Assembly (NCBI GenBank): GCA_015075305.1
Contig: JABTUS010000008.1
Span: forward strand, 186,001-250,000
DNA: 64,000 bases
Source: Opitutaceae bacterium
GTDB taxonomy: Bacteria > Verrucomicrobiota > Verrucomicrobiia > Opitutales > Opitutaceae
Reading direction: 5' to 3'
The notes beneath the pieces were generated by a model that did not search any database, was not told the origin of the DNA, and was given only the letters and a program-made list of their open reading frames with translations. Both the position numbers and the translations under genes were made by a program. Shown here piece by piece: positions 12,386-26,926 of this stretch. Position 1 is the stretch's first letter, and each line of letters starts with the position of its first letter.

Positions 12386-12679
12386 GGGTGGGATGTGCGG
12401 ATTGTGAAGGGAGGCCGGCGGCAGGGAGCGGAATGAACCGCGGATACGGGCCGGGGATCTTGGGGAAAAGGATATGCTGCCTCAATTTCTATCCAGAATT
12501 ACCGTTGCCGCAATGAAATTGGCGGAGTTGTGTGTGATCGTTCACCAAGCTGCCGGCTATCCGCGTTTGAACAGGAGTTTGGCGCAGGATTTCCGCCGCC
12601 AGACGCACCATCTGGTCCCCGCAGGGGCGCTTGCAGGATTCTGGAGTTGAAATTTCCGTGTGATTGCACGACAGATGCC

Positions 12680-13873
12680 ATGACCATGTGGCGTGAGTTC
12701 GTGGAATTCGCCGAGAAACGGCATGAGCCATTCAGTGCAATCTGCGCTCGTTTCGGCATCAGCCGGAAGACGGGCTACAAGTGGCTGAATCGATTTCGGG
12801 TCAAGGGCGAGGCGGGTCTGGTGGAACAGAGCCGGCGTCCAAAAAATCTGCCGCGCAAGACACCGGAGGCGGTCGAGGAACTGGCGATTGCGCTGCGCGC
12901 GGAAAATCCGGACTGGAGTGCGGTTCGCATCTGCTCGGAGATGGAGGCGCGAGGCATCGCTCCCGTGCCTGCGCCCAGCACTGTCGACCTCATACTCCGG
13001 CGACGCAGGGAGGTTGTCGCGCAGCAGATCGCCGAGTCAGGCGCGCATTCCGACGCCGTTCGGTATGAACCGAACTTTCGGTGGCGGCTACAGTTGCATG
13101 CTGAAATCCGCATTGCTGGTTCGGGATCCATGGTGCCCGCGTGGGTTGAGGATGAGGTGAGTCGTTTTGTCGTTGGCGCCTTTCTGATTCCGCCTGTTCG
13201 CAAGGAGGAGAATCTGCGCGCCGGAGTGGAGTCGCTCATGCGCCGCCATGGCATGCCGTGGCGGATGGCGCTGGCGTCCCCGCGTGAGCACACACCGTTC
13301 ACCGTCTGGTTGATGCGCCTCGGCATAGGGGTGGATTTTTGCGATGTGCAGCCGGCGAACCTGAGCCGGGAACAAAGCCAGCTCATGGCGCGGCTCGCCG
13401 ACATGCCTGCCTACCAGAGGCCGGCGGTCGAGCGGCAGATGCGCCTGGATCCAATGAGCGGGCTGAGCGGGAAGCGGTATGCGAACGAGAAGGCGGTGCT
13501 CAATGCCCTCGAACAGGCGCGCACCCGGCACAATTTTGGCCAAACTCAGGAGTCCCTGCAGTTGAGGGCGCCCATCTCCCTTTATCGTCCCAGCCTGCGG
13601 GAAGTGCCGGATGAATTTGCGGAATTTGCCTACTCCGCGGATGCCGAGACCAGGGTGGTTTCGGAGAAGGGAATCTTCACGTTCCAGCGGAAGCTCGTCC
13701 ACGTGGGCCGGGTTTTTTCCGGGCTGGAGGTGGAGATAAAACCGCTGTGCGGTGAAAATCGGTTCGTCGTGGTCCTTGGCACGCAAGCTTTGGGACAGGT
13801 AGATCTCTCTGCGGTTGAGATGGATGACACGACATCGGTTCCGCTTGCAAACTTCGCATTGCCGGATCGCTGA
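12680..13873 (+). CDS. IS481-type transposase homologue with eroded active site (candidate domesticated regulator)
   Basis: The 397-residue intact frame has a helix-turn-helix at residues 18-40 (ICARFGISRKTGYKWLNRFR), the linker GLVEQSRRPKNLPRKTP, and a second HTH-like segment (PDWSAVRICSEMEARGI), all as in IS481 transposases. The integrase-core region is collinear, but the catalytic residues are missing: WxxDF is replaced by WRLQL (135-139), the DNG-PF motif by SPREHTPF (200-207), and the NG-ER-H motif by PANLSREQSQLMARL (225-239). The C-terminal beta-barrel is preserved (residues 325-376). No inverted repeats flank it. It lies about 250 bases upstream of, and on the same strand as, a TonB receptor gene set, so a DNA-binding regulatory role is possible. 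The ATG at 12680 matches the family N terminus. Inactivity as a transposase is inferred. Confidence 0.72.
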   Translation: MTMWREFVEFAEKRHEPFSAICARFGISRKTGYKWLNRFRVKGEAGLVEQSRRPKNLPRKTPEAVEELAIALRAENPDWSAVRICSEMEARGIAPVPAPSTVDLILRRRREVVAQQIAESGAHSDAVRYEPNFRWRLQLHAEIRIAGSGSMVPAWVEDEVSRFVVGAFLIPPVRKEENLRAGVESLMRRHGMPWRMALASPREHTPFTVWLMRLGIGVDFCDVQPANLSREQSQLMARLADMPAYQRPAVERQMRLDPMSGLSGKRYANEKAVLNALEQARTRHNFGQTQESLQLRAPISLYRPSLREVPDEFAEFAYSADAETRVVSEKGIFTFQRKLVHVGRVFSGLEVEIKPLCGENRFVVVLGTQALGQVDLSAVEMDDTTSVPLANFALPDR

Positions 13874-13976
13874 CGCCCCTTGGATCCCGGTTAGGCGGTG
13901 AATGCAGGGGCATGTTTTGGTTAACCCAAGTGTAACCCATCTATTTATTGAATCGTTTCCATAACACTACTTTTTC

Positions 13977-13994
13977 AACGAATTAGAATTCGTT
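13977..13994. promoter_or_regulatory. Perfect palindrome in AT-rich leader of the TonB-receptor gene set
   Basis: AACGAATT-AG-AATTCGTT is a perfect 8-bp inverted repeat with a 2-base spacer, sitting in an AT-rich stretch (about 13920-14035) unlike the surrounding GC-rich DNA. It lies about 136 bases before the receptor start. The symmetry and position suit an operator for a dimeric regulator. The -10-like TATTTTATAT downstream is suggestive only. No known regulator family is identified from the motif. Confidence 0.45.
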
Positions 13995-14129
13995 AATAAG
14001 CTGTGTTGTAGTATTTTATATCAAGTTCCAGGGTGGCACGTCAAATTTGAAGCTTGGGTTGACATGGGAAGAATTTCCGGTCTTAAGGGAATCTGCTCAG
14101 TCACACAGAACCTCAACCCCGTATTCTCC

Positions 14130-16931
14130 ATGACCGCTGTCGGACGCTGTCGGATATTCGTTTCCCTGCTTGGCTTTTTTTCACTGGCTGCGGTGTTGTC
14201 CGCGGCCTCGATCGCCGGACGCGTTCGCGATTCCGGAACCAATTCCTACATTCTCGGTGCGTCCGTTACGCTTCGCGAACTGGCTCGCACGACAACAACA
14301 ACGGCATCCGGCGAGTTCAGTTTCAGCAATGTTCCGGCTGGAACCTACACCCTGGAGGTATCTTCGCTCGGGTTCGACACGTTGACCAAGGCGATCGATG
14401 TGACTGAAGCCGCGATGGCGCCGGTGGAGGTTGCCATCAAGTCCGATGTTCTGGAACTCGGGCGTTTCGTGGTTGAAGGCACCCGGGAGGGGCAGGCCCG
14501 CGCGCTTCAGCAGAAGCGAAGCGCCAACAACATCCTCGATGCGATCTCGGCTGACGCTGTCGGCAAGTTTCCCGATGGCAATGCAGCCGAGGCGCTGCGG
14601 CGCGTGCCCGGCGTTTCCGTGGAGATCGACCAGGATGAGGGGCGCTACATCGTGCTGCGTGGCATCGATTCCGCGTTGAACACGGTGACGCTCAACAATC
14701 AGCTGATCGGCACGCCGTCGGAGCAGGGAAATCGCGGCATCGCCCTCGACTCCGTGCCCGCAGATTTGATATCGCGCCTGGAGGTTGTGAAGGCGGTTAC
14801 GCCCGACATGGATGGGAGCGCCATTGGCGGCTCCGTTAATATTGTCACACAGAGCGCATTCGATCGACCCGAGGGCTTCTTCTTCGGAAGCGTCGGTGGC
14901 TTTTACGACACCTTCAGCGGGAAAACCACGCCGAATGGGAGCTTCAGTTATGGTCGCACCCTGGGCGCGGATCGGAAATGGGGTGTGGTGCTCGCGGCCA
15001 GCTATTCATTGAAGCAGTTCAAGTCGCAGACCGTGAATACTGGGGGGTGGGCTACAACGACCGGAGGCCTTTTCGTCCCGAGCCAGCAGCAGAGTTACGA
15101 CTACGATGTGGAACGTGAGCGAATCGGCACGAATGTCGCGTTGCAGTTCCGGCCGAAGGCCGGCCACGAACTCGCGCTCAGGATCAATCACAATGAGTTC
15201 ACTGACAACGAGGGCCGGCAGAGCGTGCTTTATGAATTCCGTCGTGGAACGACGACCAATGAGACTGCGGCGGGTGGAGCCAACTCCCAGGGACGTGCAA
15301 GCCGCCAGTTCCGCGATTATCATCAGACGGGAACCATCGACGCCGTCTCCCTCGAGGGAAAACATTCGGTTGGCACCGATGGACAGCTCAGTTGGCAGGT
15401 CGGGACGAGCAAGGGTGAGCGCGATGTCCCCACACGGGTTGACTGGGAATATCGCTCCGGCAGCACGACCGCACTTGCCAACACGATCGATCGCACGGGC
15501 GAGATCCTGGTGATCAAACCCAATACCGACGCCTACTACAACCCGGCGACCTTTCCCTTCCGGCGCGTTCGTTTCCGCTCGGACGATGAATCGGAGAAAG
15601 TCTCCACCGGTCAGATTGACTACAAGCGTGATGCGCAGTTCGCCGGACGCCCGGGATTCTGGAAGGTGGGAGTCAAGGCGACCACACGGGACAAGAGCGA
15701 CGATCGAACCAATCGTAACTTCAATGCGGCCTCGCCTGCCTTCACACTCGCGGACTCGGGCCTGTCGCTGCCGGAGGTGTCAGACTATTTTGATGGACTG
15801 TTCCGGTTTGGTCCCCGGTTGAACCTTGAAGGCAACCAAGCCTACTATGCCGCCAATCCAACCCGCTTCGTGGCGGATTCGGCGTCCAGCCTCGCGGATT
15901 CATCCGCAAGTGATTTTGACGGATCGGAGGATGTGTGGGCGGGCTATGCAATGGCCAGCATCGATCTCAATCCGAAGACAACGGTCCTGGGTGGCATACG
16001 CTACGAAGGAACGGACAGCAGCTACGGTGCGAATGAACGTAGGCCGGACGGGACCTATCGTTGGGTGACGGGCGGGCGTTCGTATGGAAATTTCATGCCG
16101 GGTCTGCACTTCAACTGGCGTCCGTCCAACAAGTGGGTGTTGCGCGCCGCATGGACGAACACGATCAGCCGCCCCAGGTACACCGACCTTGCACCGCGTC
16201 GCGTCATCGACGCCATTGCCGATGCAACCGGGGGGACGTTCACCGGTTCAATCAGCAGTGGAAACCCTGAACTGAAACCGTATGAAGCGATGAACTTCGA
16301 TGTATCGCTTGAGTACTACCTCAGCAACTCGGGCATCGCCTCCGTGGGTGTTTTTCACAAGACAATCGACAACCCGGTCTTCACGCGCCAGGTCTTCCAG
16401 TCGAATGTCACCCTGGAGGGAATCAACTTCAGCAGCGTGACGACCACGGAGCCGCAGAATGCGGACAGCGGAAAAATCACGGGGCTCGAGCTCAATTACC
16501 AGCAGTTCTTCAAGTTTCTCCCTTCGCCTTTTGACGGGTTCGGCATCAACTTCAATTTTACGCTGACCGACTCGTCGGCGAAACTGTTCACCCGCACTCA
16601 GGAGCTGCCGTTCTTCAAGCAGTCCGACCGGATTGCCAACATCGCCTTGTTCTACGAGAAGTATGGCTGGGAGGCGCGAGTAGCCTTGTCCTACAGTTCG
16701 GACTTTCTCGACGAAGTTGGCGGAGATGCGGCGAGCGATCTCTACATCCGCGGCCGCCAGCCCTTGGACGCAAAGATCAGCTATCGCATCAATTCGAAGT
16801 TCAAGGTATTTGGGGAGTTCCTCAATCTGAACGAAGAGCCGCTGGTCACCTACATCGGCAAACGCAGCCAGGATTTTGACCATGAAATCTACCAGTGGAA
16901 GGCTCGCTTTGGCGTGAACTTCAACTTCTGA
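14130..16931 (+). CDS. TonB-dependent receptor with carboxypeptidase-like N-terminal domain
   Basis: The 933-residue outer-membrane protein has a signal peptide (CRIFVSLLGFFSLAAVLSAA) and a carboxypeptidase-regulatory-like beta domain at about residues 28-105 (IAGRVRDSGTNSYILGASVT). The plug follows (AISADAVGKFPDGNAAEALR, then RVPGVSVE and VLRGIDSALNTVTLNNQLIG), and then a 22-strand barrel ending in the usual aromatic FGVNFNF. The plug style (KFPDGNAAEALRRVPGVS) is typical of receptors for carbohydrates or their derivatives. ATG 14130 directly precedes the signal peptide; 14064 is an in-frame alternative. Its TGA overlaps the ATG of the next gene, so the two are translationally coupled. The ligand is unknown; the downstream genes suggest a small hydroxyacid or its phosphorylated precursor. 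Confidence 0.88.
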   Translation: MTAVGRCRIFVSLLGFFSLAAVLSAASIAGRVRDSGTNSYILGASVTLRELARTTTTTASGEFSFSNVPAGTYTLEVSSLGFDTLTKAIDVTEAAMAPVEVAIKSDVLELGRFVVEGTREGQARALQQKRSANNILDAISADAVGKFPDGNAAEALRRVPGVSVEIDQDEGRYIVLRGIDSALNTVTLNNQLIGTPSEQGNRGIALDSVPADLISRLEVVKAVTPDMDGSAIGGSVNIVTQSAFDRPEGFFFGSVGGFYDTFSGKTTPNGSFSYGRTLGADRKWGVVLAASYSLKQFKSQTVNTGGWATTTGGLFVPSQQQSYDYDVERERIGTNVALQFRPKAGHELALRINHNEFTDNEGRQSVLYEFRRGTTTNETAAGGANSQGRASRQFRDYHQTGTIDAVSLEGKHSVGTDGQLSWQVGTSKGERDVPTRVDWEYRSGSTTALANTIDRTGEILVIKPNTDAYYNPATFPFRRVRFRSDDESEKVSTGQIDYKRDAQFAGRPGFWKVGVKATTRDKSDDRTNRNFNAASPAFTLADSGLSLPEVSDYFDGLFRFGPRLNLEGNQAYYAANPTRFVADSASSLADSSASDFDGSEDVWAGYAMASIDLNPKTTVLGGIRYEGTDSSYGANERRPDGTYRWVTGGRSYGNFMPGLHFNWRPSNKWVLRAAWTNTISRPRYTDLAPRRVIDAIADATGGTFTGSISSGNPELKPYEAMNFDVSLEYYLSNSGIASVGVFHKTIDNPVFTRQVFQSNVTLEGINFSSVTTTEPQNADSGKITGLELNYQQFFKFLPSPFDGFGINFNFTLTDSSAKLFTRTQELPFFKQSDRIANIALFYEKYGWEARVALSYSSDFLDEVGGDAASDLYIRGRQPLDAKISYRINSKFKVFGEFLNLNEEPLVTYIGKRSQDFDHEIYQWKARFGVNFNF

Positions 16932-17959
16932 TGCGGCATATGAAGATGCATCGCTGGTTTCGTGGTTGGTTGGGATGCCTGAGCCTGCTTGCGCATGCAG
17001 GCGCACTCTGGGCGGTGCCGCCCGAACCGGTCGATGGAGGCGTCACCTTTGTGGTCGTCCCCGACAGCCAGAAGTATGTCTGGAAACGGCCCGAGCTGTA
17101 CACGCTGCAGACGGGTTGGGTCGCCGCGAATGTCGCCAAGTACAACCTCGTGCGCCTCCTTCATGTGGGGGATGTAACCCAGCACAACAACCGCGAGGAA
17201 TGGCTGGCCGCCCGTCGCGCCCATCGTGTCTATGACGGACTCCTTCCGGCGATCTACGCATCGGGCAACCATGATATCGGGCTGAATGGCAAGTCGACGG
17301 ATCGCGAATCACTCTTTTCCGAGATGATTCCGATCTCCGTGTACCGTGCGCAGGGTGGATTTGGCGGAGTCTATGACAAGGAGCCAGGCCGCAGCGAGAA
17401 CAGCTGGCACCTCTTCGAGGCGGCGGGAAGAAAGTGGCTCGTGCTCGCGCTGGAATTTGGTCCGCGAGACGACGTGCTGCGCTGGGCCAATGAGGTGGTG
17501 CAGAGTCACCCGAAGCACTCCGCAGTGCTGATCACTCACGCCTACCTGCGAGCGGATGGCACGCGGTTCGACCGACAGGTTTCGACCCCTGGCCAAAAGC
17601 GGCCGAACAAGGGATTCGATCACTACCTGCAACTGAGCAAGTCCGCGGCGGGCTTCAACGACGGCGCAGACATGTGGGACAAACTGGTTTCCCGCCATGC
17701 CAACTTTGTTCTCGTGCTGAGCGGCCACGTTTGTACGAGCGCGCATCTCGTCAGCACGGGCATAAAGGGCAACATCGTTCACCAGGTGCTCGTTGACTAC
17801 CAGGATGCGGAGCAGGGCGGCAATGGATGGCTGCGCCTGCTTCAGATGCTGCCCGATGGGCGCACGGTGCGCGTCCGCGACTACACGCCGCTGCTGGATC
17901 AGACATCGACCGATCCCGCCTGCACGTTTGAATTTCAGCTCGCTCCGCCAATGCCGTAG
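16931..17959 (+). CDS. Exported calcineurin-like metallophosphatase
   Basis: The 342-residue protein has a signal peptide (residues 1-27, ending HAGALWAVPP) and the metallophosphoesterase motifs in order: VVPDSQKY, HVGDVTQHNN, GNHDIG, ITHAYL and SGHVCTSAHL, which place the two-metal site. It should act in the periplasm on phosphomonoesters or diesters. The start codon shares one base with the receptor stop (TGATG). Together with the PAP2 gene further down, it gives this gene set two exported phosphatases, which suggests the imported compound is phosphorylated. The substrate itself is not predicted by sequence. Confidence 0.86.
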   Translation: MRHMKMHRWFRGWLGCLSLLAHAGALWAVPPEPVDGGVTFVVVPDSQKYVWKRPELYTLQTGWVAANVAKYNLVRLLHVGDVTQHNNREEWLAARRAHRVYDGLLPAIYASGNHDIGLNGKSTDRESLFSEMIPISVYRAQGGFGGVYDKEPGRSENSWHLFEAAGRKWLVLALEFGPRDDVLRWANEVVQSHPKHSAVLITHAYLRADGTRFDRQVSTPGQKRPNKGFDHYLQLSKSAAGFNDGADMWDKLVSRHANFVLVLSGHVCTSAHLVSTGIKGNIVHQVLVDYQDAEQGGNGWLRLLQMLPDGRTVRVRDYTPLLDQTSTDPACTFEFQLAPPMP

Positions 17960-18042
17960 AGCGGAGGCATCATGACTCATGGCCGGGGAGATGATGAGCC
18001 CTGGCGAAGGCGGCGCATCGGACCGCGCTGCATCAATCTCCA

Positions 18043-19674
18043 ATGACCTGGATACAGAACTACACTCCGCTGCTTGACAGCCTGGTGGCATCGACGCTGG
18101 TGGCGCTTGCACCAGTGGTTATCCTGCTGGGACTGCTGGCATTCTGCCATGTGCGCGCGCACTGGGCGGCGCTTTCGGGACTCCTTGCCGTGCTGATCGC
18201 CGCCCTGTTCATTTATCACATGCCGGTCGAGATGGCGGTCGCCGCATCGATCTATGGGGCGCTCTATGGCATTCTCCCAATCGGCTGGATCGTGCTCAAT
18301 GTTGTTTTTCTCTACGACATCACGGTCAAGACGGGGCAGTTCGAGATTCTCAAGGAGTCCATCACGCACCTGTCCGCGGATCGCCGCATCCAGGCACTGC
18401 TCATCGCCTTCAGCTTCGGTGCCTTCATCGAGGGAGCCGCGGGTTTCGGTGCGCCGGTGGCGATCTCCGCGGCGATGCTGATCGGCATTGGATTTCATCC
18501 GCTGCTTGCGGCATCGCTCGCCCTCATGGGCAACACCGCGCCGGTCGCCTTCGGCTCGCTCGGCACGCCGATCATCGCCCTCGCCGAAGTCACGGGACTT
18601 CCCCTCCAGCAGCTCAGTGCCATGACGGGACGCCAGCTCCCGCTTTTCAGCTTCCTTGTGCCGTTCTGGCTTGTGGCGGCGATGGCGGGATGGCGCTCCA
18701 TGCTCCAGATCTGGCCGGCCTGCTTCGTTGGCGGCGCGACGTTCGGCCTGCTCCAATACTTCGTCAGCAACCACCACGGTCCCTGGCTCGTGGACACCGC
18801 GAGTGCGCTGGCGTCGATGGGGTCCATTCTTCTGCTCCTTCGGTTCTGGAAACCGAAGACAATCTGGCGGTTTGCCGGCGAATCGGATGCCGTCTCAACA
18901 GGGACCGCGCGACCGTCGTCGGGAGCCCTGTTTCGCGCGTGGTCGCCCTGGATCATTCTGACAGTGGTTGTATTCGTGTGGGCACTACCGGTGACCAAGG
19001 CGTTTCTCAACCACCTTTGGATGGTCAAGATCGATGTGCCGTATCTGCACAATGCCGTGCTGAAGGCCCCGCCGCTGACCCTCGAGCCCAAGCCTGAGAG
19101 CGCTGTCTACACGTTCAACCTACTTTCCGCAACCGGCACCGCCCCCTTCCTCGCGGCGATCCTTTCGGGGCTCTGTCTCGGTGTCGGTCTGACAAGGCTG
19201 TTCGGCATCTATGTCAGGACCATCTGGCGCGTGCGCTGGTCGCTCCTGACGATTTCGGGAATGCTTTCGCTGGCCTTCACGTCCCGCTACGCGGGACTGG
19301 ACTCCACGCTTGGACTCGCGTTTGCGAGCACCGGAGTGCTGTTTCCATTCTTTTCGCCCCTGCTTGGATGGATGGGGGTCGCGCTGACGGGAAGCGACAC
19401 CGCGTCAAACGTGCTTTTTGGCAACCTGCAGCAGATCACGGCGGGGCAGGTCGGCATCTCGCCGGTCCTTGCCGCAGCGGCCAACAGCACGGGTGGTGTC
19501 ATGGGAAAGATGATTGACGCGCAAAGCATCGTCGTCGCAGGCGTCGCCACGGGACAGCAGGGCGGGGAGGGGGTTATTCTTCGCAAGGTATTCTGGCACA
19601 GCCTTGCGCTCGCGGTTCTCGTGGGAGTCTATGTCCTCGTCCAGGCCTACGTCTTTCCCGGCATGGTCCCCTGA
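18043..19674 (+). CDS. L-lactate/glycolate permease family transporter (LldP-type)
   Basis: The 543-residue integral membrane protein matches the lactate permease family in length and motifs: [40 protein letters not shown], and the C-terminal [14 protein letters not shown] and [13 protein letters not shown]. About 13 hydrophobic segments are visible. Family members (LldP, GlcA) import L- and D-lactate and glycolate with protons. It starts 83 bases after the phosphatase stop. Given the glycerate kinase and hydroxyacid dehydrogenase downstream, glycolate or glycerate is a plausible substrate here, by inference only. Confidence 0.9.
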
Positions 19675-19803
19675 TTTATCCGTTGCCACGCGCGGGGTTC
19701 GTCAGGATTTTCAAGCGGATACAACGGACGGCGCGCCAGACATCGGTCGAGGCTGCCCTCGGTCGCGCAGCAATGCAGCGCCTCAAAGCCATCCCAACAC
19801 GCC

Positions 19804-21201
19804 GTGACAGCGTCCCTGCCTTCCGCCACTTCGCCCAATGGCCTATTCCTGTTTGCCGCGCTGCTGGGCGGGGTTGCCTTCATCGTGTTTTCCACAACGA
19901 AGCTGAAGCTGCATCCCTTTCTCGCTTTGATCGTGGCCGCCTATGGGATGGGACTCTGTGGCGGGTTGAATTCCATTCAGACTGCAGCTGTGTTGACCGA
20001 GGGTGTCGGGCAGACTGTCGGGCACATTGGCATTGTCATTGCCTGCGGCAGCATCATCGGCGTTGTGCTCGAGAAGAGCGGTGGCGCCATGGTCCTTGCG
20101 AGCACGCTCGTGCGCTGGATCGGTGAGGCCCGCTCCGTGCTGGCGATGTCCGTGACGGGCGCGCTGGTCTCGATTCCGGTTTTTTGCGACTCGGGTTTCG
20201 TCATCCTGTCGCCGCTGGCCCGTTCGCTAGCGCGCAAAACGGGCCAGTCGCTCGCAGCCTTCGCGGTGGCCTTGAGCATGGGCCTCTACGCGACCCACTG
20301 CCTGGTCCCGCCGACGCCCGGCCCCCTTGCGACCGCGGGGCAGTTGCGCGCGGACATCGGCGCGGTCATGCTGCTGGGATTGCTCGTGTCCATCCCTGTG
20401 GTCGTGGTCACCTATGCCTATGCGCAGTTCGTGGGCCGCCGGATTGTGATCGACCCGGTTCCCAGTGGACTGGCTAGCGTCGATGCACCTGAAAGCATCG
20501 ATGAGCCGCCACGGGAGAATCGAATGGGATCGATGAGCGCGTTTGCTCCGATTCTGCTTCCGATCGTGCTGATCGCCTGTGAATCAATTGCCGCGCTGCC
20601 TTCACACCCGCTGGGAGAGGGATGGCTTCGAACCGGGATTGGGTTTCTGGGCAATGCAGAAACGGCGCTTGTCCTGGGTGTGTTTCTGGCCGCCTGGATC
20701 GTGAGAGGCCAGGGGCGCTCCGCATTTGGCAACTGGTGCGGCGAGGGACTTCGCGACGCCGGAACGATCGTCTTGATTGTGGCCGCGGGGGGCGCACTTG
20801 GTTTGGTTCTCAGGCGAACGGCAATGACCGAGGTGGTCGGAGAGGGTCTGGCCGCGCTGGACCTCGGGCACTTCAACATACTCCTGCCCTTTCTTGTCGC
20901 CGCGGGTTTGAAGATTTCAATCGGCTCGTCGACCATGTCGATGATCACAACCGCCTCGCTTGTCTCCCATCTGCTGCCGGCGCTGGGACTCGCATCCGGA
21001 TTTGGCCCCGTGCTCGCCACCCTGTCCATCGCCTGCGGCGCGATGGTGGTGTCGCATGTGAACGACGCCTATTTCTGGGTCATCACCCAGATGACCGGCA
21101 TGTCTCTTCCTCAAGGCTATCGATTGATTTCAGCTCCGTCGATCATCGCCGGACTCACCGGGATTGTGGCCGTGGTGCTGCTCAGCCTGTTCCTCCTTTA
21201 A
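19804..21201 (+). CDS. GntP-family permease
   Basis: The 465-residue transporter has the GntP pattern: a GVGQTVGHIGIVIACGSIIG segment, VVLEKSGGA, then PVFCDSGFVILSPLARSLAR, and HCLVPPTPGPLATA. It is strongly hydrophobic with about 12 membrane segments. Known members carry gluconate, idonate, D-glycerate-like or other sugar acids. A GTG at 19804 is the start that gives the family N terminus. It is 129 bases after the LldP-type gene and 3 bases before the PAP2 gene, so co-transcription is very likely. Two different organic-acid permeases in one gene set suggests two related acids are taken up. Confidence 0.88.
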   Translation: MTASLPSATSPNGLFLFAALLGGVAFIVFSTTKLKLHPFLALIVAAYGMGLCGGLNSIQTAAVLTEGVGQTVGHIGIVIACGSIIGVVLEKSGGAMVLASTLVRWIGEARSVLAMSVTGALVSIPVFCDSGFVILSPLARSLARKTGQSLAAFAVALSMGLYATHCLVPPTPGPLATAGQLRADIGAVMLLGLLVSIPVVVVTYAYAQFVGRRIVIDPVPSGLASVDAPESIDEPPRENRMGSMSAFAPILLPIVLIACESIAALPSHPLGEGWLRTGIGFLGNAETALVLGVFLAAWIVRGQGRSAFGNWCGEGLRDAGTIVLIVAAGGALGLVLRRTAMTEVVGEGLAALDLGHFNILLPFLVAAGLKISIGSSTMSMITTASLVSHLLPALGLASGFGPVLATLSIACGAMVVSHVNDAYFWVITQMTGMSLPQGYRLISAPSIIAGLTGIVAVVLLSLFLL

Positions 21202-21204
21202 TCC

Positions 21205-21930
21205 ATGATTACACGCCCCCTCCTCACGCTACTATGCTTCACGGCTGGACTTGCCTCCGCGGTTCAGGCGTATCCCGAACCGGGAAAATTCATCCGCACG
21301 GATGAACTGGATGTCACGACGGTGATTCCCGCGGCGCCGGCTGACAATTCGCTGGCGACCGCGGCCGACATCGAGACGGTGTACCAGGTTCAGAAGCGGC
21401 GGACGCCGGAGATGATCGCCCTCGCGGAGTATTTTGCAGAGGACACCGTGTTTCAGTACGATGCGGTGATCGGCCCATGGTTCACCGCGGCCAACCTTCT
21501 GCGCACTGCGGAGTTTTTTCTCCAGATCGATTCCGATCGCTACGCAATCAGCAGCAAGGGCAAGCAGGTCTGGCAGCGTCCCAGGCCTCCGCTGCTCGAT
21601 GCGCGCATCAAGGCCTGCGTGCATCTGCCGAAATCCGGATCCTATCCGAGCGGGCACTCGACGCAGGCGTTCCTGTGGGCCGGACTGCTGGCGGAAATAT
21701 TTCCCGAGCACCGCGCCGCTCTGCGCGAGCGTGCGGAGCTTGTGGCGTGGTCGCGCGTGATTGGAGGCGTGCACTATCCGACCGACATTACAGCCGGAAG
21801 AATTCTCGGAGACCGCCTGGCCGCGGAGTTCCTGAAGCGACCGGCCGTGAGGGAGGCTCTGGTTGTTGTCGAGGCCGAGGTGAGAGGTGCAGCCGCAAAG
21901 GCGAACGAATCGGCCCTGGCGACACCATGA
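21205..21930 (+). CDS. Exported PAP2 / class A acid phosphatase
   Basis: The 241-residue protein has a signal peptide (MITRPLLTLLCFTAGLASAV) and the complete tripartite phosphatase signature: KGKQVWQRP (K-x6-RP), YPSGHS (PSGH), and SRVIGGVHYPTD (SR-x5-H-x3-D). This is the soluble periplasmic class A acid phosphatase type, not a membrane PAP2. Only 3 bases separate it from the GntP-type gene, and its TGA overlaps the ATG of the glycerate kinase gene (ATGA), so coupling is strong. It should release phosphate from organic monophosphates in the periplasm. Confidence 0.9.
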   Translation: MITRPLLTLLCFTAGLASAVQAYPEPGKFIRTDELDVTTVIPAAPADNSLATAADIETVYQVQKRRTPEMIALAEYFAEDTVFQYDAVIGPWFTAANLLRTAEFFLQIDSDRYAISSKGKQVWQRPRPPLLDARIKACVHLPKSGSYPSGHSTQAFLWAGLLAEIFPEHRAALRERAELVAWSRVIGGVHYPTDITAGRILGDRLAAEFLKRPAVREALVVVEAEVRGAAAKANESALATP

Positions 21931-25590: not shown

Positions 25591-25639
25591 GGGACATAGG
25601 TAACAAACTGTCCGGGGACATGGGTTACACTTTCAGGCT

Positions 25640-26669
25640 ATGGCCTGGAACGAAGAAACCCTCATGGAACAGAAGCATCGGTTTGTCAGTCTCGCGGCCA
25701 CGGGCCGCTTCACGTTTACCGAATTGTGCGCGGACTTTCACGTCAGTCGGAAGACCGGCCACAAGTGGTGGAAGCGTTACCGTCGGGAAGGCACCGCGGG
25801 ATTGCGCGAGCGCAGCCGCCGTCCGCAAGGATGCTCGCACCAGACCGCTGGGCAGATCCAGGGCTGATCGTGCGGTTGCGCCGCAGGCACCGGACGTCAG
25901 GGGCCGAAGAAGCTGCGCAAACTGTTGCGCCGCGACCGGGCATCCGGCGGCCGCCGGCATGCAGCACCATAGCAGCGATCCTGCGGCGTCACGGCTTGAG
26001 TCAGCGTCCGCGACGCAAGCCGGGCCTCTACGGTGCCGCGCCGTGCACTGACGACACCGACGCATCCGAACCATGTCTGGACGGTGGACTTCAAAGGTTG
26101 GTTCACTCTGGGCAGCGGGCAGCGCTGCGATCCCCTGACGGTGTGTGATCTGTTCAGCCGCTACTATCTGGCCTGCCGAGCCCAACCCAATCAGCAGTTT
26201 GCCGGAACACTGCGGACCTTCCGCAAGATCATGCGCTTGCGCGGGTTGCCCGAGATCATCCGGTGGACAACGGCACGCCCTTCGCCTCTCTTGCCTTGGG
26301 CCCGGCTCTCCGCCCTGAGCGTGTGGTGGATCAACCGAGCATCGTCGTCGAGTTCATCCAACCGGCTTCACCGCAACAAAACGGTTCTCACGAACGCGCT
26401 CACCGCGATCTGAAGGCCGAGGCCACGCAAACCGCCGTCCCCAACCCTGGTCCGCCCAGCAGCGGCGATTTGATCGCTGGCAGCACCTGCGAAACCATGT
26501 CCGGCCACATGAAGCGCTGGGCATGCTCTGCCCGGCTCAAATCTACCGTCGCAGTCCCCGCCGCCTGCGCGAGAACGACACCGCGGTGCGCTACCCGAAG
26601 GACTGGCTGGTGCGGCGCGTTTCCGCAACAGGCAAGCTGTATGGCATGACACCACGACGCTCTTGGTGA
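25640..26669 (+). pseudogene. IS481-family transposase, frameshifted
   Basis: The N-terminal HTH part (DFHVSRKTGHKWWKRYRREG, LRERSRRPQ) is in one frame and stops at 25867. The integrase core continues in others: VWTVDFKGWF with the first catalytic Asp near 26080, DNGTPF with the second Asp near 26263, and PQQNGSHERAHRDLKAEA with the Glu near 26370-26410. A fourth segment (FDRWQHLRNHVRPHEALGML, then YPKDWLVRRVSATGKLYG) runs to a stop at 26669. At least three frameshifts separate these pieces, so the gene is dead, although the DDE residues are all still visible. Confidence 0.85.
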
Positions 26670-26759
26670 AATCTTCGCTCATTGCCGGGTGGCGTTGCGC
26701 AAGGATTCCACCGGCCGCACCGAGCTGCACTTTGCCGCGTACATCTCGGTTACCTCGTC

Positions 26760-26815
26760 TTTGATCCGGCAGCGCGATTCCGGCCTGCGGCCTGCCATCG
26801 CGCTGCCGGATCAAA
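26760..26815. repeat. Large hairpin with perfect 18-bp arms
   Basis: TTTGATCCGGCAGCGCGA at 26760-26777 is exactly complementary to 26798-26815, with a 20-base loop rich in GGCC. It lies inside the decayed IS481 copy near its right end. No T-run follows on the plus strand, so it is not a standard terminator. It may be a small palindromic element inserted in the IS, or part of the IS itself. Confidence 0.7.
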
Positions 26816-26926
26816 AACCTCTCGCCAAATCACACACAAAAACTAAACAAAAAGTGTAACCTATGTCCCCGGACAAAGTGTAACCCATGTCCGAATCAAA
26901 CCAATGCTCCAAGAGGAGCTCAGCCA

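Follow-up and report, generated by a model that had tools for sequence, protein, structure and literature searches.

At 12680-13873 on the forward strand of the window (the whole 64,000-nucleotide stretch of Opitutaceae DNA that was analysed), an uninterrupted frame of 397 codons encodes a homologue of IS481 transposases, followed on the same strand by a TonB-dependent receptor gene (14130-16931; Pfam TonB_dep_Rec_b-barrel, Plug and CarboxypepD_reg), which we propose as its regulatory target. A check of open frames confirmed the frame as initially annotated, and alignment of homologues, which begin at the equivalent of M12686, placed its best start at 12686, giving a protein of 395 aa (12686-13873, +). 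Between the two genes lie two short features of the same strand: TGTAACCNATCT (TGTAACCCATCT; 13931-13942), a retained transposon-end site and proposed operator, and TTGACATGGGAAGAA (14059-14073), a second conserved island with a -35-like appearance. At its longest, the receptor frame extends back to 14064, within this second island; a conserved signal-peptide-like start at 14130 makes 14130 the more likely beginning of the receptor.

The relationship of the 395-aa protein to IS481 transposases extends over nearly its entire length. NCBIfam IS481 (NF033577) matched residues 6-194 with a score of 102.8 bits, short of the model's cut-off of 224, and Pfam identified helix-turn-helix domains and the IS481 leucine zipper (LZ_Tnp_IS481), with no match to the rve integrase core in the protein. 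Profile-profile alignment against 66 live relatives, i.e. those retaining the D,D,E triad, covered residues 4-377 (E 1.7e-71), as expected of homology to a whole transposase. Together with an AlphaFold model (mean pLDDT 87, pTM 0.65), this alignment bore out the earlier description of a retained helix-turn-helix, linker, RNase H-like core and C-terminal barrel. The best Foldseek match of the model was IstA of IS21, at low whole-chain TM-scores (about 0.3), and its core (about residues 125-301) resembled retroviral integrases, e.g. 3dlr (Z 13.6, 2.6 Å, 131 residues). The helix-turn-helix (residues about 16-45; 12731-12820, +; model helices at 16-22 and 27-45) is marked by invariant or near-invariant columns over an alignment of 34 rows, in which its recognition-helix region, SRKTGYKW, is common to dead (triad-less) and live members. 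Elsewhere in the window, the IS481 copy near 25592-26892, previously noted as broken, appears as short frames of 87 and 137 aa.

The family was searched across 252 genomes (E ≤ 1e-20, at most seven candidates scored per genome). Of 80 loci with relatives, 68 were kept, near-copies and some others being left out, and seven of these belonged to the triad-less clade, leaving 61 live loci. The 66 live relatives were these 61 minus L067 (109 aa) and L100 (765 aa), plus seven relatives from the homologue search. Eight further intact homologues of the triad-less gene were found in Opitutaceae, at 33-71% identity to it: five in the same genus (G008, G007, G005, G002 and G001, from nine other genomes of the genus) and one in each of three other genera of the family (G089, G175 and G028). 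Named records place seven of the eight in Opitutaceae or Verrucomicrobiota. All nine triad-less proteins formed one group in a tree of 75 rows (support 100/99), with G028 on a long branch. Among 387 genomes drawn evenly from the phylum, only our own genome (G000) and G028 were recovered at E ≤ 1e-60; members known from genomes outside the draw could not reappear there, so this sampling can miss rare cases.

The D,D,E triad that defines an IS481 insertion sequence was filled at all three alignment columns in 66/66 other relatives vs 0/9 members of the clade, the third residue being debatable. The initial annotation had held all three catalytic residues to be lost, and for the two aspartates this stands. 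The first is replaced by Q136 in WRLQL (numbering from 12686), and across the nine members its column holds Q, R or C except in G028, which is gapped there. Alignments and model alike show our protein to lack the DNG loop that should follow strand β4; of the nine clade rows, five have this loop deleted and four have it replaced. The third acid is less clear. In our model, helix 228-239 carries no acid at 231-236, whereas helix 223-241 of the live control, L070, contains E230, and the residue is also lost in one alignment; two other alignments, however, pair E249-R250 with the live 'ER', and by eye the E249 position is E or D in seven of nine clade rows. Stray acids lie close to the second column in L048 (D) and close to the third in G028 (E), with the full set in no clade member. 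Loss of all three acidic residues is therefore not certain, but the catalytic triad is not intact whichever alignment of the third acid holds, and the structural model contained no intact acidic triad at the expected places.

The dead gene is under purifying selection. Among pairs of clade members, G007 and G005 were the least saturated and gave a dN/dS of 0.08-0.09 at a dS of 0.36-0.39, and the six of ten pairs computable by NG86 ranged from 0.08 to 0.13, not near the value of 1 that the initial annotation had named, along with a lack of orthologues in related genomes, as contrary to a new function. When the gene was divided into four parts, every part was constrained wherever the estimate was defined (one of 24 was undefined), and the helix-turn-helix part had the lowest dN/dS in 6/6 pairs; the C-terminal part was likewise conserved. 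Corresponding values for the neighbours were 0.056-0.079 (oxidoreductase) and 0.038-0.056 (receptor), so that the dead gene evolves somewhat faster than the genes around it.

Conservation of the position beside a TonB-receptor gene, raised as a question in the initial annotation, was evident across the clade: one receptor subfamily lies 3' of the dead gene on the same strand in 9/9 genomes. It adjoins the dead gene in eight of them (our own genome, G005, G008, G002, G089 and G175, with G007 and G001 cut by a contig end), and in G028 a single ORF of 289 codons intervenes. A tenth linked locus, in G058 (L159, 8928-14150), has both dead gene and receptor broken, which may reflect decay or assembly error (the genome is 69% complete); we set aside this apparent co-decay as evidence, as the assembly may carry errors. 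The genes 5' of the dead gene differ: in five genus members they encode a Gfo/Idh oxidoreductase and a DUF2911 protein, whereas G089 and G175 have a glycerol-3-phosphate dehydrogenase gene there. G176 (L195, 5572-6805) offers a natural counterpart to the latter order, with a glycerol-3-phosphate dehydrogenase gene followed by the receptor and no dead gene.

Most receptors of the subfamily occur without the dead gene. A clade profile run over all stop-to-stop frames recovered the nine intact genes and the pieces in G058, and found nothing better than E 0.1 at 20 unlinked receptor loci chosen at about 44% identity or more; at one of these, G123, absence is uninformative (388 bp upstream), and G068 has 1,237 bp upstream. 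Two receptor matches were left uncounted: G117:C51, which is split, and, of the tandem pair in G175:C42, the second receptor. Linked receptors occupy four places on the receptor tree, pointing either to an old link with repeated loss or to several gains. Behind the receptor in the window (16895-21930) are a weak calcineurin-like phosphoesterase match (under the cut-off), an L-lactate permease, a GntP permease and a PAP2 phosphatase, which may together form a cluster for taking up organic acids or their phosphates.

The DNA that separates the dead gene from the receptor contains a sequence characteristic of the ends of live IS481 relatives. TGTAACCNATCT was present in 8/8 aligned clade spacers, 53-91 nt past the stop codon, and the variant TGTTACCGATGT in G028 and G058. 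Live relatives carry TGTNACCNAT[CG] in right-end orientation at 49/61 loci and its complement at the left end at 53/61 (some being cut by contig ends), and 72 of 74 spacings between neighbouring live end copies were 23-25 bp. A matrix built from 176 live sites only, with no clade sequence in training, and scanned for its best score in the 400 bp before the receptor match, returned 8.9 to 21.2 in 10/10 linked loci vs -13.9 to 2.6 in 20/20 unlinked loci. The low-scoring set includes G001b and G175b, additional receptors from two genomes in which the dead gene is present; at two mismatches, a match to the site occurs in the unlinked G016. In G028 the site lies 14 nt beyond the intervening ORF, near the receptor, and G058 is laid out likewise, indicating that the site keeps company with the receptor and not with the transposase 3' end.

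The site is rare elsewhere. Six genus genomes with the dead gene contain the exact sequence one to three times each, and of four genus genomes without it, G009 has one exact site and three have none; looser TGTWACCNATST matches numbered one in G089, two in G175, seven in G028 and 14 in G058. Our own genome has two exact matches besides 13931-13942, one of which resembles, by eye, a lone IS481 left end. No left-end pattern occurred within 400 bp 5' of the dead gene in nine of ten linked loci; the exception was G058, where a bare GGTTACA precedes the gene by 70 bp. The earlier report of no terminal inverted repeats is thus correct in that the paired repeats of an IS481 element are missing, but one site of the right-end type has been kept. 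A palindrome at 13977-13994, previously put forward as the binding site, did not hold up: it had no counterpart within six mismatches in seven of eight other linked loci (G089 had exactly six). Judged from sequence, the conserved transposon-end motif at 13931-13942 is the better candidate for a DNA site. The locus has the layout of a local transcription factor, with a conserved predicted operator at the neighbouring gene that is rare elsewhere and that the protein would bind.

The second island, TTGACATGGGAAGAA, was found in 8/10 linked and 0/20 unlinked loci at up to three mismatches, and is missing in G028 and G058. Allowing four mismatches, it begins 100-139 nt after the start of the end site in 8/8 loci (128 nt in five). 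It is unique in our own genome at zero mismatches, with three more occurrences at two mismatches vs one for the control, and by eye no good -10 follows it. We also rejected the idea that the island is an end site in inverted orientation: GACATGGG is common to it and to live ends, but it scored about -6 to -9 against the matrix, no better than background.

Homology, triad loss across a single clade, purifying selection, linkage and an end site conserved beside the receptor together support our main reading, to which we assign a probability of roughly 0.7, that an IS481 transposase became, by co-option, a local regulator of the receptor gene, with an end of its own element serving as operator. 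In our reconstruction, an ancestor within Opitutaceae would have acquired an IS481-family element by insertion upstream of a TonB-dependent receptor gene; the transposase would then have lost catalysis while keeping its fold and end-recognising helix-turn-helix, and one end site, TGTAACCNATCT, would have stayed as operator. With catalysis gone, binding of the protein to the 13931-13942 site, 5' of the receptor, would set receptor transcription; we infer both the DNA binding and its effect, which may be activation or repression in response to some signal. Because the recognition-helix region is common to dead and live members and the kept site is that of live ends, the simplest account is that the protein would still bind it. 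Simple blocking is argued against by the distance of about 120 bp between the site and the -35-like island, which is unusual for a simple repressor. The new DNA-binding role predicted in the initial annotation gains support from orthologues, low dN/dS, conserved linkage and a specific candidate site. The broader proposition, that a bacterial DDE transposase and one of its own transposon ends were recruited jointly to serve an outer-membrane receptor as a ready-made regulator and operator, and that the pair has been retained while Opitutaceae diverged deeply, we regard as probable, if with less assurance. Counting against co-option are the somewhat faster evolution of the dead gene relative to its neighbours, the scatter of linked receptors over four places in the tree, the many receptors without the gene, the length of the interval between site and island, the absence of the island from G028 and G058, and the match in G016.

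A dominant-negative guard, in which the dead protein would sit on live IS481 ends and keep those elements from moving, with proximity to the receptor incidental, would be an unlikely explanation of these data. The retained site is indeed that found at the ends of live elements (the other exact match in G005 falls at the end of one, L028) and our own genome holds IS481 relatives such as L029. G002 and G007, however, have no other relative at E ≤ 1e-3 when queried with our own protein, yet keep both gene and site, and a guard leaves unexplained the receptor linkage in 9/9 genomes and the site staying with the receptor. We consider it improbable that the protein has a role away from DNA, such as that of a structural partner, with the end site conserved for another factor; conservation of the C-terminal part and a second island without a known binder would fit such a role, but the most constrained part of the gene in all six pairs is the helix-turn-helix, and the site is that found at the ends of elements from the family to which the protein belongs. 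Slow decay of a pseudogene hitch-hiking beside the receptor is hard to credit, since the broken genes of G058 and the many receptors lacking the gene, which would favour it, are set against possible assembly errors in the former and nine intact frames down to 33% identity with dN/dS near 0.1. Equally far-fetched is an active transposase with its acidic residues shifted elsewhere, for although the live 'ER' has a possible counterpart in E249-R250 and D156 is invariant, D156 is also invariant in live members beside their own triad, the first aspartate and DNG loop are gone or replaced, nine of ten loci have no left-end pattern, and the gene occupies the same location in all nine genomes.

Transposase-derived regulators are well described in eukaryotes, bacterial insertion sequences are mostly viewed as parasites or promoter donors, and the binding site of TldR proteins is not known to be a transposon end. 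Co-option of an IS481 transposase with its end, as favoured here, is consistent with orthologues at a fixed locus, purifying selection and lost catalysis, the features of a domesticated transposase; on the features that sequence can address, the gene would be classed as a transposase-derived host gene and not as a mobile element, for which triad and paired ends are lacking. It shares with IS481 transposases (NF033577; LZ_Tnp_IS481) the helix-turn-helix, linker, RNase H-like core, C-terminal barrel and end-site motif, but, unlike IS481 elements, it lacks the D,D,E triad, paired ends and mobility and sits at a fixed locus. The IS21 transposase IstA (PDB 8b4h, 8q4d) is its best match by Foldseek and by PDB profile, yet is an active end-cleaving enzyme at about 14% identity. 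TldR, which descends from TnpB, is likewise a regulator, of bacteria or phages, derived from a transposon protein, but is RNA-guided and not DDE (PMC13418256). A PIF/Harbinger-derived protein, for which a retained DNA-binding preference and action on genes close by have been proposed, is eukaryotic and from another transposase family (PMC11893794). The titles and abstract openings of the matches listed included no report of an IS481-derived regulator or a transposase-receptor pairing. If our reading is true, an insertion sequence would have been turned into a transcription-factor circuit in which protein and binding site are both traceable to one element family, with intact relatives available for comparison, and the occurrence of genomes with and without the pair would allow the path from transposase to regulator to be tested at a single small locus.

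Several further DNA features were recorded. A second end copy at +23 in genus loci (TGTATCCATC in G005 and G007, by eye) was not among the top matrix hits and is not claimed; in G089 only, a further, weaker end copy (score 5.4) precedes the site by 22 bp. The interval separating the dead gene from the divergent Gfo/Idh gene in the window carries GTGATCGTTCAC (12534-12545), an imperfect palindrome with a central CG, which we take to be LacI-type in appearance, and by eye a similar sequence, GTGAGCGTTCAC, occurs in G008, G007, G005 and G002. Elsewhere in our genome, L221 (near 9011; G000:C4:113010) has a lone IS481-like left end, GAGATGGGTTACAC...GACATGGG, with no evident transposase frame beside it, and L220 (near 10057; G000:C2:316056) has a TGTAACCTATCT site exactly where an unrelated 220-codon ORF begins, either by chance or as a second target.
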